A DNA stretch of 64,000 bases from Thermococcus sp. M39 (lineage in GTDB: Archaea; Methanobacteriota_B; Thermococci; Thermococcales; Thermococcaceae). Position numbers and translations under genes: made by a program. Below, piece by piece: positions 3,624 through 60,070 of this stretch (its first letter is position 1; the number at the start of each line of letters is the position of its first letter). Where the stretch lies: assembly GCF_012027325.1 (NCBI RefSeq), contig NZ_SNUG01000001.1, positions 248,001 through 312,000 of the forward strand. The letters run 5' to 3'. Below the pieces are notes generated by a model. It was given only the letters and a program-made list of their open reading frames with translations. It was not told the origin of the DNA and did no database searches.

Positions 3624-5847
<2,224 letters not shown>

Positions 5848-5873
5848 ATCCCTTACCTTTTTTTCTTTTTGCT

Positions 5874-5886
5874 CTCAAAATTTATA
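5874..5886 (-). promoter_or_regulatory. TATA-like promoter element for the 5847-to-1 minus-strand operon
   Basis: Minus strand reads GCTATAAATTTTG, about 30 nt upstream of ATG 5847 in the 49-bp gap after the phosphoesterase gene. The distance fits an archaeal TATA box with a short leader. It would drive the unknown gene, rtcA, the transglutaminase-fold gene and the membrane protein. Confidence 0.5.
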
Positions 5887-5896
5887 GCGTTTTTCA

Positions 5897-6409
5897 CTAA
5901 AGGCTCATAAAGCCAAGTGGTTCTTCTGTATCTAGGTTAATTATCTTTATCTCCCTTTTCTTTGTATCAAGAAATGCAATGCTTTTGATTCCGGTGAGGT
6001 ATCCACATACTTCTCCAGGATTCACGAGTATACTTCTTCCCGTTTCTCTGATTTCATATTTGTGAGTGTGCCCCCTTACTATCACATCATACAGTTGACT
6101 CCTTGCAAAAGCTTCGACAACCTTTTCATTTGTCCCATGAAGAACGATAATTCTCATACCATCTGCGTCAATCTCAAGTACCTCTTCTGAAATTCCTAAC
6201 GCCTTATTCAGACCTCTTCTCTCTCCATCGTTGTTTCCAAAAACTCCTTTTAATGGTGCTTTAAGTTTTGAGAGCTCTCTTTTAACGAAGGGAGCTACAT
6301 AATCTCCTGCATGAATCACTAGATCAACTTTTTCTCTGTTAAAAAGCTCAACAGCTTTCGCTATAGCGGGCAGATTGTCGTGAGTATCGCTCATTATCCC
6401 AATTAACAT
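5897..6409 (-). CDS. YfcE/MJ0936-family metallophosphoesterase
   Basis: 170 residues from ATG 6409, preceded by GGTGAT; the GTG nine bases upstream lies inside that site. Calcineurin-like phosphoesterase motifs are all visible in order: SDTHDN (about 7-12), HAGDYV (about 36-41), FGNNDGE (about 60-66), LHGTNE and RGHTHKYE. These residues bind the two metal ions. Relatives are Mn/Ni-dependent phosphodiesterases acting on small model phosphodiesters, some on cyclic nucleotides. The natural substrate is unknown. Length is typical. It has its own TATA-like element at about 6438-6450 on the minus strand and is divergent from the gins23-mcm operon. Confidence 0.93.
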   Translation of the reverse strand: MLIGIMSDTHDNLPAIAKAVELFNREKVDLVIHAGDYVAPFVKRELSKLKAPLKGVFGNNDGERRGLNKALGISEEVLEIDADGMRIIVLHGTNEKVVEAFARSQLYDVIVRGHTHKYEIRETGRSILVNPGEVCGYLTGIKSIAFLDTKKREIKIINLDTEEPLGFMSL

Positions 6410-6437
6410 GATTATCACCTTAGTTCTCTTTTTCCTT

Positions 6438-6450
6438 AGGGTTTATAGAG
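6438..6450 (-). promoter_or_regulatory. TATA-like element for the phosphoesterase gene
   Basis: Minus strand reads CTCTATAAACCCT, about 30 nt upstream of the ATG at 6409. It lies in the 120-bp divergent region shared with gins23. Confidence 0.5.
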
Positions 6451-6466
6451 TTTCCCCCAATGTTAT

Positions 6467-6505
6467 CTATGTGGGAAAGTTTAAGAAATCTTGACATCCA
6501 CATAG
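6467..6505. promoter_or_regulatory. Inverted repeat flanking the gins23-mcm TATA region (candidate operator)
   Basis: CTATGTGG (6467-6474) and its exact reverse complement CCACATAG (6498-6505) enclose 23 bp containing an AAGTTTAAGA element at about 6478-6487 that can serve as TATA box. Arms are perfect over 8 bp. Initiation would be expected near 6507, just past the right arm, so the repeat would act as DNA rather than in the mRNA. This fits a dimeric regulator site controlling the replication operon; no regulator is known from this sequence. Confidence 0.4.
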
Positions 6506-54905: not shown

Positions 54906-55438
54906 TTGAGTCCATTAGAATTTGAGATTAACTTTGCATCTCTGTGGAATATCTTGTGTTATCTAATCCTTCCATTGATTTTTGTCGTCGTTGCTCATGA
55001 GGTGCTTCATGCTGCAGCTGCAAAGCTCTTTGGGGCTAAAGTTGAGTTTGGAATTTCAGTTTTTGGAAAAGTGAATTTAGCTCCCTACACAGGTATAAGG
55101 ACTCCTCTAAGAAAGAGAGAGAGTGGATTTACATTATAATTGCCCCTGTTTTATTGTCTGCTGTCGCTTTTGTCCTCGCCTTTGCTTTGAAAAGTCTATG
55201 GTGGGGAGTTGTTTTTATATTCAACACTTCTGGCTTAGCGGGGGATTTGTTGGCCTTGATAATCATCGGCAGAATGTCTGATGGTGCTTTGATTGTGGAT
55301 GAAGGAACTGTTACAAAAGCTACTCATGAATTTCCGAGGATTTCGAGGAGAACTTCCATAATGATCAAGATCCTTGCTTTAGCTTTGCTGCTTTGTATCA
55401 TTTTGAACTTTAGGGTTGAGGTTGTTATGGGGAAGTGA
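54906..55438 (+). pseudogene. DUF3267-like membrane zincin, frameshifted at a GA repeat
   Basis: From TTG 54906 the frame encodes a membrane segment with the zinc motif AHEVLHAAAAKLFGAK, then stops at 55139. The rest (REWIYIIIAPVLLSAVAF, two more membrane segments and the C-terminus to 55438) continues one frame away. The break falls in AAGAGAGAGAG at about 55113-55123. Removing one GA restores a single 176-residue frame (533 - 2 nt = 177 codons). The product would be a small membrane metallopeptidase of the DUF3267 kind. The end overlaps the convergent ATPase gene by 14 bp. TTG start has no good ribosome site. Confidence 0.75.
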
Positions 55439-56786
55439 AGTCACCAAGGTCGAACACCAAATAGCCTTTCTCTCTAAGTTCTTCTTTCCTATCAACATGT
55501 TTTGCAATCAATCCGTAATGTTCTGCTTTTGTGCTTATTTTAACGCTTTTGCGCTTTTCTTTTAGTTCTTTTAAGATTTTCATAGCATTTTTGTATGAAA
55601 GCTCCTTCCATTTGACCTCAAAGAAGCCCGCTTCGCGTGTGATGCTATTAATAGTCACCAAGTCAATCTCTTTCTCTTTGTCCCACCATCTGCCGATTTT
55701 TGTGAACTTGAAGGGGAGCTTACTTTCAATGTTCAGTTTAATCAGAAACTGCCTTGCAACTCTTTCAAAGACTTCTCCAAGATACTTATTGAATTCATCC
55801 CTAAAATCCTCAAAACTTATTGCTCCAATCTCTATGTCATCCTTGTAGGGATAAACAAAGCGAAGCCAAAAACGATAGTAAAAGTCTTTTACTCGGTAAA
55901 TCCCAAACTTTCTGCGCTCTCTTTGTGTTATCGGAAACTCTTTGTAGATTAAGTCGAGTGTTTCAAGTGTTTTCAGGTATTTTGGCAGGTTTGTTATTGC
56001 TATCTTAGTTTCGTTAGCTATTTCTGTAAGCTTGGTTTTTCCTTCATTAATAGCTTTTAAGATGTTTAAATAATCTATCGGTTCTCTAAGCTCGTCTTTC
56101 AGGAGTCTTTCGGCATCTTCATAAAGGATGCTCACCTTGTTGTAAAAATTGCGCTCAATGTTTTCTTCAACGCTCAGCGAGTCGTTAAAGTACTGAAAAT
56201 ATGCGGGAATTCCATCGATGCATCCGTAAACTTTCACGAGTTCTTCCCATGAGTAGCGGGGAAAAGCTTCTTTTAAGTGGAAGAATCCAATCGGTGAGAG
56301 CTTTAGCTGAGCGGTTCTCCTTCCGTAAAGGGGATTTTTATAGCTCATCAAGCTTTCCATCGTGGAAATTGAAGAGCCGAGAAGAATGAGCATAATCCGT
56401 GAGTCCTTTAGAATTTCATCCCATATGTACTGGAAAACTGAAGGAATAGATTTGTCCTCCTCCACCCAGTATGGGAACTCATCAATAACAAAAACAAGCC
56501 TTTTAAAATCTTTAACTTTTTCAAAAAACTCCTCCAAGCTACGGGCTTCAATGAAGACGTTGAACTTTCTGTTAAAATTCTGAATTAGGCGAGTGAGTTC
56601 AAGCTCTATTGGCTCTTTTCTCGCTAAGAAATAAAAGCTGGGTTTGTCTTTTATGAACTGCTTGATTAGTTCAGTTTTTCCAATTCTTCTGCGTCCATAG
56701 ATTAGGATAAGGTGAGCTTTATTTTGGATGTAAAGCTCCTCAAGTGCTTTGAGTTCTTCTTCTCTGTCGATGAATTTTAGTATCAT
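55425..56786 (-). CDS. Archaeal AAA ATPase with DUF234 nuclease-like C-terminus
   Basis: 453 residues from ATG 56786. P-loop YGRRRIGKTELIKQF at about 30-44, Walker B LVFVIDEFPYW near 100, a winged-helix region (KTKLTEIANETKIAITNLPKY) and a C-terminal DUF234 part with a PD-(D/E)xK-like site (DKEKEIDLV then FFEVKWK). This is the PF01637 family, abundant and mobile in Thermococcales. Function is not established; host-defence or element-linked roles have been suggested for relatives. The start codon lies in a perfect 15-bp palindrome. Confidence 0.92.
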   Translation of the reverse strand: MILKFIDREEELKALEELYIQNKAHLILIYGRRRIGKTELIKQFIKDKPSFYFLARKEPIELELTRLIQNFNRKFNVFIEARSLEEFFEKVKDFKRLVFVIDEFPYWVEEDKSIPSVFQYIWDEILKDSRIMLILLGSSISTMESLMSYKNPLYGRRTAQLKLSPIGFFHLKEAFPRYSWEELVKVYGCIDGIPAYFQYFNDSLSVEENIERNFYNKVSILYEDAERLLKDELREPIDYLNILKAINEGKTKLTEIANETKIAITNLPKYLKTLETLDLIYKEFPITQRERRKFGIYRVKDFYYRFWLRFVYPYKDDIEIGAISFEDFRDEFNKYLGEVFERVARQFLIKLNIESKLPFKFTKIGRWWDKEKEIDLVTINSITREAGFFEVKWKELSYKNAMKILKELKEKRKSVKISTKAEHYGLIAKHVDRKEELREKGYLVFDLGDFTSP

Positions 56787-56800
56787 GATATTAAATATCA
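56786..56800. promoter_or_regulatory. Palindrome over the start of the ATPase gene (candidate operator)
   Basis: TGATATT-A-AATATCA has perfect 7-bp arms. On the minus strand it starts just before and includes the first base of ATG 56786, with a TTAAATTTAATAA TATA-like element 15-25 bp upstream. A protein bound here would block initiation. Confidence 0.5.
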
Positions 56801-56893
56801 CGTTATTAAATTTAAGAGTTTCGGCTAAGAGATTTTCACAGTTGATAATGATTTTGCGGTATATAGATTTGGGATTGTGCCGTGATGTTTTAA

Positions 56894-57652
56894 TCAGTAT
56901 GCAACATCCATCTTTCTGAAAAGGATGTATGCAATTATTAGCATAGCACCTGAAAAAAGCGTGAGCGTAGCTATTTGAAAAGCAGTATTTACTTGTATCC
57001 CCAGAAGAGACGCTCTTATTAAGTTCGCTGCATATGTTAAAGGATTAAACTTTGCAATTTCTGAGATGAGTGGGGGGAGATATTCAGGAGGATAGAATAT
57101 GCCGCTAATTGCTATTATTGGCGTTGTTATCATCCTGTTGAACATTGTTAGCTTGTCTGGAGTCTTTACAACTGCACTGACACAGAATGACAGTGATGCA
57201 AATATTATTGAACTCATCACAACAGCATAAAGAAACAGGAATGGGGTGGCATATGAAAGGCTCACTTCATCTTTTATTATTGTAGTAGAAAGCAGCCCTA
57301 AGGTTATGGCAGTTGATGACGAGATTATAACAATTGAGAGCACCCTTGAGAGGAAATATTCAGCTCTTGAGGAAAAGCTCAAAATTTGCTCTAACATTCC
57401 ATTGTATTTATCTGTCCAGAGCATTGACCCGCATAATATCGAAAGCTGCAGAGTATTTATCAAAATGGCAGCAGGTACAAAAAAGGCGGAATAGCTTAAA
57501 TATCTGTCATACATCGGTATAGGTTTTACAATTTTGTTGTATGCCAATGAAATTATGAAAATGTAAATGAGCGTTGGAAGGAGTAAGCTAAAAAACAGGT
57601 GAGGCCTCAGGTCATAGGTCGTTCTTAGATTCCGATATATCAGGCGTCTCAT
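56894..57652 (-). CDS. ABC-2 type permease
   Basis: 252 residues with six membrane segments in ABC-2 layout and the typical FYPPEYLPPLISEIAKFNPL loop before the last part. It starts at ATG 57652, behind GGTGAT, and overlaps the ATPase gene by 41 bp. With that ATPase it makes a two-component exporter. It is the last gene of the peptide/radical SAM/ABC operon, so the likely cargo is the modified peptide; that is inference. Confidence 0.9.
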   Translation of the reverse strand: MRRLIYRNLRTTYDLRPHLFFSLLLPTLIYIFIISLAYNKIVKPIPMYDRYLSYSAFFVPAAILINTLQLSILCGSMLWTDKYNGMLEQILSFSSRAEYFLSRVLSIVIISSSTAITLGLLSTTIIKDEVSLSYATPFLFLYAVVMSSIIFASLSFCVSAVVKTPDKLTMFNRMITTPIIAISGIFYPPEYLPPLISEIAKFNPLTYAANLIRASLLGIQVNTAFQIATLTLFSGAMLIIAYILFRKMDVAY

Positions 57653-58352
57653 TTTTAATCACCTTAAGATATGCCTCTTCTAAGTTGGCTGAGTTGGTTT
57701 TCCTAATTAGAGACTTTGGAGAGTCAATTGTTAATATTCGTCCCTTATTTATAATTGCGATTCTGTCGCATAGTCTTTCTGCTTCCCACATATTGTGAGT
57801 TGTAAAGAATACGGGGATTTTCATATTCCTTATAACTTCGATGACCTTATACCTCGATTCAACATCTAAGCCAACTGTAGGCTCATCAAGAAACAATAAC
57901 GTTGGTTTATGTACTAATTCCCTGGCTATTTGGAGTCTTCTTCTTTGTCCAATTGATAGTTCAATAGCTTTTTTGTTTGGCTTTAAATCGAATTCATTAA
58001 TAAGTTTTGAGGCTCTTTCTTTGGCTTCCTCTTTGCTTAACCCTCTTAGGTATCCGTAAAGCCAGATATTTTCAAACACTGAGAGATAAGGTTCAAAGCT
58101 AATTCGTTGCTGAACATAACCAATGCTTTTTCTTTCCTCTCTTGAAAGCTCTTTTGGACTTTTCCCGAAGATTTTAACGGAGCCTTTGTCTGCCCTTAAG
58201 ATACCAAGAATTATTCTCACTGTAGTTGTTTTACCAGCACCATTGGGCCCTATAAATCCAAATATCTCTTTTTTAACATCAAAGCTTATTCCTTTAAGCA
58301 CCCATGTACTGCTAAACTTTTTCCATAAATTTGAGACTGAAATGACCTTCAT
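57612..58352 (-). CDS. ABC transporter ATPase, exporter type
   Basis: 246 residues. Walker A GPNGAGKTTT (about 34-43), Q-loop VQQ, signature ELSIGQRRRLQIA (a variant of LSGGQ), Walker B LLFLDEP and the switch TTHNMWEAERLCD. CcmA/DrrA-like drug and peptide exporter ATPases look like this. It begins 14 bp after the restored stop of the radical SAM gene and appears intact, as does the permease. Confidence 0.93.
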   Translation of the reverse strand: MKVISVSNLWKKFSSTWVLKGISFDVKKEIFGFIGPNGAGKTTTVRIILGILRADKGSVKIFGKSPKELSREERKSIGYVQQRISFEPYLSVFENIWLYGYLRGLSKEEAKERASKLINEFDLKPNKKAIELSIGQRRRLQIARELVHKPTLLFLDEPTVGLDVESRYKVIEVIRNMKIPVFFTTHNMWEAERLCDRIAIINKGRILTIDSPKSLIRKTNSANLEEAYLKVIKNETPDISESKNDL

Positions 58353-58366
58353 GGTTTATCCCTTGA

Positions 58367-59748
58367 TTAATTTAAGTAGCTTGAATATTTCAAGATAATG
58401 TCCATAGCTTCGTTGAATATTCTACATACTATCGGGCAGGATACTCTTCTCCTAGTTCATAACTTCTGAAGGCTATTCCGGGGCAAACACCACCACATAA
58501 GGCATAATACTTACAAGATTTGCATTTTTGGAGTATGTCTAATGATTTTAATTTTCCGTATATGTCTTTCCAATCTCTACGTATATCCCTTGAATCTGAC
58601 AAGAGTTCTTTTAGTGACTTTTCTTTTAGAGAGCCTAATTTCCATTCTGTCATTCTATCACATGGAGTAATTGTTCCATCAGGTTCAATATTTATATAAG
58701 CAATGTAGGGTACACACTGAAATGAGAATTTTTCAAATTCTTTATTATCTTGGAGTAGTTCTATGTTAAATGAGCCAATAATACGAAATCCTGAATTTTC
58801 TTTGTTGTATATGGACATTAATCGCAATAAATTCTCAAGAAACTCTCGAATTTCTTGTATAGTTGGTCTAAACTCTTTCCAATTTATAAATCCACATCCA
58901 ACTGGCATTATTAAAGTTGGAATCCACATAGAGACATTTAGATCAAGCAAAAGGTCAACAAAATCTTCCATTCTTCCTATTAGATGTCCTCTCAAAGAAC
59001 TAGCAACAGCTACGTTTACACCATTATCGGTTAATGTTTTGATTGAGGTAATAATTTTTTATATGCGCCAGGAACACCAACAAAGGGATCAACATCCTGC
59101 TCGCTAATGCCATGTAATGAGACTTGGACAATAAGATTATCAATTTTAGATATTTTTTAATTATCTCCGGGGTTAGAAGTGTGGCATTTGTATAAACTCG
59201 TAGTGGAAATGCATATTCACCTGCATACTGAAGTAGTTGGAGAGTGTCCCTTCTTAGAAAAGGTTCTCCCCCTGTGAAGAATAAATAACTTGCTCCATAT
59301 TCTGAGAGTTGATCAATTATGTTCATCCATTCCTTGGCTGTTAGTTCTTTAATTTGTGGGCTCCACTTATTATTACCTTGAAGACAATGTTTACATTGGA
59401 AGTTACATCTATGAGTCAAAGTTAGAAGGGCTCTGCTACACATACTAAATGGATAAATTTCTACAGATTTGCTCTCGTATGTATCGCTGAAAGTAATTAT
59501 CCCTAGGTTATGCATTTCTAGTATTGTTTTAGCAACATCTTCTTGTGGTACCCCCATGTCATTGGATATTTCTTCACATATTTGATCAAATGTTAGCTTC
59601 TCTTTTGAAATTCTCAGTACAATTTCTTTGAAAATAGAATCACCGAATCACCGAAATAATAATCATTTTGGTAATAGGGTTCGACGAAATAATACTTGCC
59701 CCTATATTCATGAAGGCGTAATGGTCTAAGAAGAGATATATAGACCAT
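58367..59748 (-). pseudogene. PqqD-like/radical SAM/SPASM peptide maturase, broken by four indels
   Basis: Starts at ATG 59748 behind AGGGTGAG. Domains in order: a PqqD-like winged helix (about 1-95, RPLRLHEYRGKYYFVEP then DSIFKEIVLRISKEK), a radical SAM core with CNFQCKHC and FTGGEPFLRR, and a SPASM-type Cys-rich end (CVPYIAYINIEPDGTITPCD, CKSCKYYALCGGVCPG). Four breaks: tandem 8-bp GAATCACC copies at 59637-59652, missing A in two A6 runs (plus-strand T runs 59153-59158 and 59055-59060) and one missing base near 58441, after which the frame reads SCPIVCRIFNEAMDIIL. Undoing all four gives exactly 459 codons (1382 - 8 + 3). Such enzymes install thioether or C-C links in peptides. Confidence 0.88.
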
Positions 59749-59786
59749 TCTGCTCACCCTAAGGGAAAAATATTAAAAATTTGAAA

Positions 59787-59939
59787 TTAAACGTTATTGG
59801 CTAACTTATTTATCTCATCTATGAACTCTTTATGATATACTGAAATTCCGATATATTTATCTTCTCCAGCATGGAAACCTTTTGTATTTATCACACAACT
59901 AAACTTTTTTAAATGTTGAGAACTCCTTTTCCTATTCAT
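59787..59939 (-). CDS. Short peptide, candidate RiPP precursor
   Basis: 50 residues from ATG 59939, well placed after GGTGATA (ATG 59942 is too close to it). The N-terminal half is basic (MNRKRSSQHLKKFSCVINTK), the middle Gly/Tyr-rich (GFHAGEDKYIGISVYH) and the C-terminus amphipathic and helical (KEFIDEINKLANNV). It has one Cys (15), no signal peptide and no known domain. It is 38 bp upstream of the PqqD-like radical SAM gene on the same strand and first in the operon, where a precursor is expected. No family match is claimed. Confidence 0.6.
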   Translation of the reverse strand: MNRKRSSQHLKKFSCVINTKGFHAGEDKYIGISVYHKEFIDEINKLANNV

Positions 59940-59992
59940 CATTATCACCAAAATATTACTATAACTCTTTGTTTATTTTTTCTATAACTATA

Positions 59993-60008
59993 AGTTTAAA
60001 ACAAAAAG
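59993..60008 (-). promoter_or_regulatory. TATA-like element of the peptide/radical SAM/ABC operon
   Basis: Minus strand reads TTTTGTTTTAAACTTA, about 60 nt upstream of ATG 59939 in an AT-rich 131-bp gap behind leuS. Initiation would be near 59970. Confidence 0.4.
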
Positions 60009-60070
60009 TTAGATATACAATCTACCAAACTCAAAAACTAGTAATGATAAAAAGGGAATAAAAGCAAAGC

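Follow-up and report, generated by a model that had tools for sequence, protein, structure and literature searches.

The closest described counterparts of the locus reported here are systems in which a ribosomal peptide is modified by a radical SAM (rSAM)/SPASM enzyme, namely the sactipeptide/ranthipeptide systems (SkfA-SkfB and the 5wgg maturase), the WGK/streptide-type RaS-RiPPs (WgkA/B/C), and the pathways of PQQ (PqqA/D/E) and mycofactocin. The well-studied enzymes SkfB and PqqE act on peptides encoded beside their genes. As far as we know, hyperthermophilic archaea have yielded few characterised modified peptides. A genome-mining survey describes rSAM-modified RiPP classes (ranthipeptides, sactipeptides) across archaea, and its main text makes no mention of Thermococcus or Pyrococcus (PMC12144867).

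The locus lies in a 64,000-nt stretch of DNA from Thermococcus sp. M39 (the window) and comprises, in order, a short peptide ORF, an rSAM/SPASM maturase gene, an ABC transporter ATPase gene and an ABC-2 permease gene (Table 1). It resembles the sactipeptide/ranthipeptide systems in having a short putative precursor beside an rSAM/SPASM enzyme together with ABC export, in the best PDB sequence match of its maturase (SkfB), and in the presence of one invariant Cys in the peptide. Unlike those systems, however, the peptide has only this single Cys and matches no known precursor family, and the maturase reaches no NCBIfam equivalog cut-off, scoring far below all of them (80.9 bits vs 300 for SkfB, 70.3 vs 850 for AlbA, 86.3 vs 625 for StsB, and 64.2 vs 340 for PapB). 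With the WGK/streptide type it shares the rSAM/SPASM architecture and a weak profile match of the maturase N-terminus to WgkC, whereas the peptide contains neither Trp nor a WGK motif, the latter being found in a different Thermococcales family. PQQ and mycofactocin biosynthesis likewise combine a ribosomal peptide, PqqD-like recognition (putative in the present case) and an rSAM/SPASM maturase, but no PqqA or MftA model recognises the peptide, and the genes described here lack cofactor-biosynthesis partner enzymes, are patchy and mobile, and include an exporter. No Pfam, NCBIfam or PHROGs family covers the peptide, and the best reading of these similarities in sequence is a new precursor/maturase family of the known radical-SAM RiPP kind. 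No description of the locus was found in the literature searched, which lay mostly outside subscription journals.

Table 1. Features of the locus in the window, with the basis of each assignment
Feature	Position	Strand	Basis or remark
Inserted four-gene cassette, approximate extent	56825..60049		Empty site in G092, same genus
ABC-2 type permease (DrrB-like), 252 aa, intact	56894..57652	minus	~80% identical to cassette copy
ABC transporter ATPase (DrrA-like), 246 aa, intact	57612..58352	minus	~79% identical to G078 cassette copy
Radical SAM/SPASM maturase, pseudogene	58358..59748	minus	Alignment to G078; orthologue intact in G078/G082
Putative precursor peptide ORF, 50 aa	59787..59939	minus	Start ATG at 59939, stop codon ends at 59787; homologues in G078/G082; middle block under purifying selection
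Conserved 28-aa block K-F-S-C-V-[IL]-N-T-K-G-[FL]-H-A-G-E-x-x-Y-I-G-I-S-V-Y-H-K-E-F	59823..59906	minus	dN 0.07, dS saturated; 24/28 identical
Shine-Dalgarno-like GGTGAT, 4 nt 5' of peptide ATG	59944..59949	minus	GGTGGT in relatives, also 4 nt before the aligned ATG
A+T-rich block 5' of peptide, putative promoter	59978..60010	minus	Conserved with G078

The 50-residue ORF (MNRKRSSQHLKKFSCVINTKGFHAGEDKYIGISVYHKEFIDEINKLANNV) had been proposed as a candidate precursor peptide in an earlier note on this DNA, and it is present at the coordinates given there, but on the minus strand. The note had also described a well-spaced GGTGATA site before the ATG and a distance of 38 bp to the radical SAM gene. 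Both observations hold: GGTGAT precedes the ATG at a spacing kept in the relatives and fits an archaeal Shine-Dalgarno sequence, and 38 bp separate the peptide from the ATG of the rSAM frame (59748), the same distance as to the aligned ATG in genome G078. DNA similarity between the window and the corresponding G078 region spans window positions 56987-60016 and breaks off at both sides, upstream of the peptide at the A+T-rich block.

Among the 94 genomes of the order searched, strong peptide homologues outside the window were found only in G078 and G082 (E = 6e-16 and 8e-16; 63% identity over 43 aa), and these two, both from another genus of the same family, remained the only convincing cases besides the window's own genome among 115 genomes of the phylum. 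The frame in G078 and G082 reads MVVTMKARNHPKQLRKFSCVLNTKGLHAGEHQYIGISVYHKEFVKGIKKPFTNS[TA]F, with the common ATG at codon 5. An intact 474-aa radical SAM/SPASM ORF follows this frame after 23 bp, the distance being 38 bp if counted to the ATG aligned with that of the window. A search of genome contigs with the window peptide alone gave no match, and one with the three-peptide alignment matched only the MAG Thermococcales archaeon 44_46, which is the same contig as G082. Neither the peptide nor its DNA had a match in viral contigs, phages, Pfam, NCBIfam, PHROGs, PDB sequences or Rfam, a single PHROG match at E = 0.14 being disregarded. Other Thermococcales gave weak matches (E 0.03-0.6) that were discounted as chance. 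The same was done with a match in G015 (E 0.004), which falls in a long frame that lies inside the locus of a large unrelated protein or runs opposite to it.

Conservation within the peptide is strongly uneven. The window and G078 share 24 of 28 residues in the middle block vs 5 of 21 in the ends (Fisher p = 2e-5), so that the conserved part is the middle, flanked by variable ends, and not a clean leader plus core. The block includes the segment singled out in the earlier note, which had asked whether one part is more conserved and had named a lack of amino-acid conservation between loci as evidence against its proposal. Over the 28 codons, the 18 base differences between the window and G078 comprise 14 at third, 4 at first and 0 at second positions, and when these base changes were placed at random, none of 5000 trials gave as few amino-acid changes. 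Because of these third-position changes, the conserved middle block, and a dN of 0.07 with saturated dS, the ORF is, judged from its substitutions, a real gene that evolves as a translated one under amino-acid selection in the block; its homologues in two other genomes, directly upstream of an orthologous rSAM gene, further argue against a chance ORF. A translated leader (uORF) or RNA element controlling the operon might be suspected, since the ORF has a ribosome-binding site to itself and lies directly 5' of the other genes, but the dominance of third-position changes and the retention of amino acids over 28 codons, together with the lack of any Rfam match, leave a uORF or RNA element very improbable indeed.

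The nature of the neighbouring enzyme is most readily seen in its intact 474-aa orthologue in both G078 and G082, which carries Radical_SAM (2.8e-24) and SPASM (6e-9) domains in Pfam. In G078, the CX3CX2C motif lies at 117-124 (C117NFKCKHC), and the SPASM cysteines form a full set (C347, C365, C411, C414, C420, C424 and C444). The best matches among PDB sequences are headed by peptide maturases (SkfB 3e-19, PqqE 4e-12, 5wgg 2e-10). Orthologues at 68% identity or more occur only in the three peptide-bearing genomes, the next best relatives standing at 32-33%, and the rSAM relatives recovered by a plasmid search with the maturase were all below 60% identity, the best of those listed reaching 22-27%. 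The first ~90 residues resemble a PqqD/RRE domain by eye. Their single NCBIfam profile match, NF050069 WgkC (PqqD-family protein), is weak (E = 0.006), as is an hhalign match to PqqD-bearing relatives (E = 0.014, probability 3%), and the maturase has no match to Pfam PqqD (PF05402), a model known to miss many RREs (PMC7470986). These N-terminal residues are a putative RRE, likely but weakly supported by profiles. Where the earlier note had described the neighbour as a PqqD-like/radical SAM gene, the radical SAM assignment stands through the domains of the orthologue, the PqqD-like part finds weak profile matches, and the gene itself is a pseudogene in M39.

During these searches, a second, unrelated precursor-like peptide, QFExPxxVPLxSxxTxWxxWxxWGK, was observed just 5' of a PqqD-rSAM-SPASM gene in G016, G038 and G064 (loci L045, about 2755-2860 on the plus strand; L046 and L047, just 5' of the rSAM genes; and L081-L084). 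It occurs in 4/115 genomes, the copy in G067 lying near a contig end, and a transporter-like gene follows downstream in G016, G038 and G064. The associated rSAM enzymes are relatives at about 32% identity with clear PqqD domains, and the W-x-x-W-x-x-W-G-K near the peptide end recalls, in our view, the cross-linking of WgkA/streptide-type peptides, that is, WGK-type RaS-RiPPs. The presence of a short conserved ORF upstream of these ~32% relatives was counted in favour of the RiPP reading. In addition, locus L054 (G047:C67, about 3649-6500) contains a pair of neighbouring rSAM/SPASM genes, of which the first matches PqqD marginally (E = 0.005), and is possibly another peptide-modification locus.

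The window, G078 and G082 agree in gene order (peptide - rSAM - ABC ATPase - ABC-2 permease), and the last two genes overlap in all of them. The surroundings differ: the four genes follow leuS in the window, and in G078 and G082 they lie between two genes that we take, from their translations, to encode enolase (eno) and a fibrillarin-like protein. Sites free of the four genes are found in close relatives within both genera. In G092, of the window's genus, leuS is followed by an ATPase_2/DUF234 gene with about 30 bp between them; in G075 and G081, of the other genus, enolase leads on to the fibrillarin-like gene, the matching flanks being about 11 bp apart (flank identity 97% and 92%, respectively). 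The ~3.2-kb cassette thus forms a discrete unit that occupies two unrelated sites and is gained or lost as a whole. Terminal repeats that might explain its movement were sought at the cassette and none were found, and the cassette contains no recombinase. The region downstream of leuS (window 55425-60070) is a variable site in the genus and appears to be a small insertion hot spot, holding the cassette plus ATPase_2/DUF234 in the window, ATPase_2 only in G092, about 1 kb of different DNA and then ATPase_2/DUF234 in G087, and neither the cassette nor the ATPase_2 gene in G088 and G090.

The peptide, the rSAM orthologue and the ABC ATPase occur in exactly the same three genomes among the 94-115 searched. 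Within the order, the peptide is present in 3/3 genomes with the maturase and 0/91 without it, although G078 and G082 have their insertion site in common and nearly the same peptide (98%), which leaves effectively two independent observations and not three. The pattern is the opposite of the one that the earlier note had named as damaging to its idea, an ORF occurring only where the maturase is absent. Its proposal of a precursor peptide is thereby strengthened by conservation and by co-occurrence with the maturase, while the maturase of M39 is dead and the substrate role is one that we infer.

Taken together, these comparisons of sequence and gene content suggest that the ORF product is very probably a radical-SAM RiPP precursor, which the rSAM/SPASM enzyme would take as its substrate. 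The peptide could conceivably act instead as a small subunit with a regulatory or structural role in the operon (a regulator, chaperone or maturase partner), given that the conserved segment is central, that leader and core are not obviously separated, and that the conserved Cys, His and Tyr could also serve binding. Such a role nevertheless seems improbable: 28 conserved aa, in a protein of 50, make a short stretch for a folded regulator, Pfam, NCBIfam, PHROGs and PDB sequences hold no match to the peptide, the cassette contains no other candidate substrate, and SkfB and PqqE set the precedent of enzymes acting on a neighbouring peptide.

Under the precursor reading, the peptide would be the first gene of a horizontally moving cassette of precursor, rSAM/SPASM maturase, ABC ATPase and ABC-2 permease. 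As an RRE, the N-terminal ~90 residues of the maturase would bind to part of the 28-aa block, with the alternating YIGISVYH stretch as the likely beta-strand for this contact, and the enzyme would then install a cross-link or similar change within the same block. The one invariant Cys, in FSCV, permits a Cys-to-carbon thioether, which we tentatively place as the leading candidate for the modification; a cyclophane on Tyr/His/Phe or an epimerisation would be the alternatives. The ABC pair would export the product and/or protect the producer, and by analogy the exporter may also give self-protection. Because the cassette has no dedicated leader protease, any removal of a leader would fall to an enzyme encoded elsewhere.

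In M39 itself, the maturase is broken, while the peptide and both transporter genes are open. Alignment to G078 reveals an 8-bp tandem duplication at ~59655-59648, a 19-bp deletion at ~58378, and single-base deletions near 59152, 59058 and 58436. Since two of these single-base deletions fall in runs of A and the assembly is a draft of 54 contigs, sequencing or assembly errors might be thought to hide a maturase that is intact in the organism; we consider this quite improbable, as neither the 8-bp duplication nor the 19-bp deletion is a homopolymer error, one single-base deletion lies outside any run, and the neighbouring genes are intact (leuS, 958 aa; ATPase_2, 458 aa; both ABC genes). With the maturase a pseudogene, the peptide is probably unmodified in M39, where the precursor is probably an orphan beside an intact exporter; the strain would now be a non-producer that keeps both.

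The function of the peptide system in M39 may be nil. It is possible, if somewhat doubtful, that the whole cassette is decaying and functionless in this strain, with the ORF still open simply because the decay began recently, a view compatible with the RiPP reading of the family. The loss of the maturase fits such decay, as do the N- and C-terminal parts of the window peptide, which differ strongly from those of the relatives. Against it stands the contrast between ~1.65 kb of peptide and transporter genes without a frameshift and five indels in the 1.4 kb of the maturase: if indels were evenly spread over the cassette genes, all five would fall within the rSAM gene with a chance of about 0.02 by our own arithmetic. 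This clustering hints at selective retention of the transporter. A bolder interpretation, which we regard as unlikely on present evidence, would see a new hyperthermophile RiPP class on a mobile cassette, with recognition and modification sites merged in the 28-aa block between disposable ends, and M39 as a 'cheater' that has lost the maturase and kept an exporter that may confer immunity.

With its defined putative precursor, a maturase that is intact in two relatives, an exporter, natural cassette-free sites and a natural maturase-dead strain, the system offers material for testing directly the fate of the peptide and its possible part in competition among Thermococcales. More broadly, comparative genomics can find small precursor ORFs beside orphan rSAM genes in Thermococcales.
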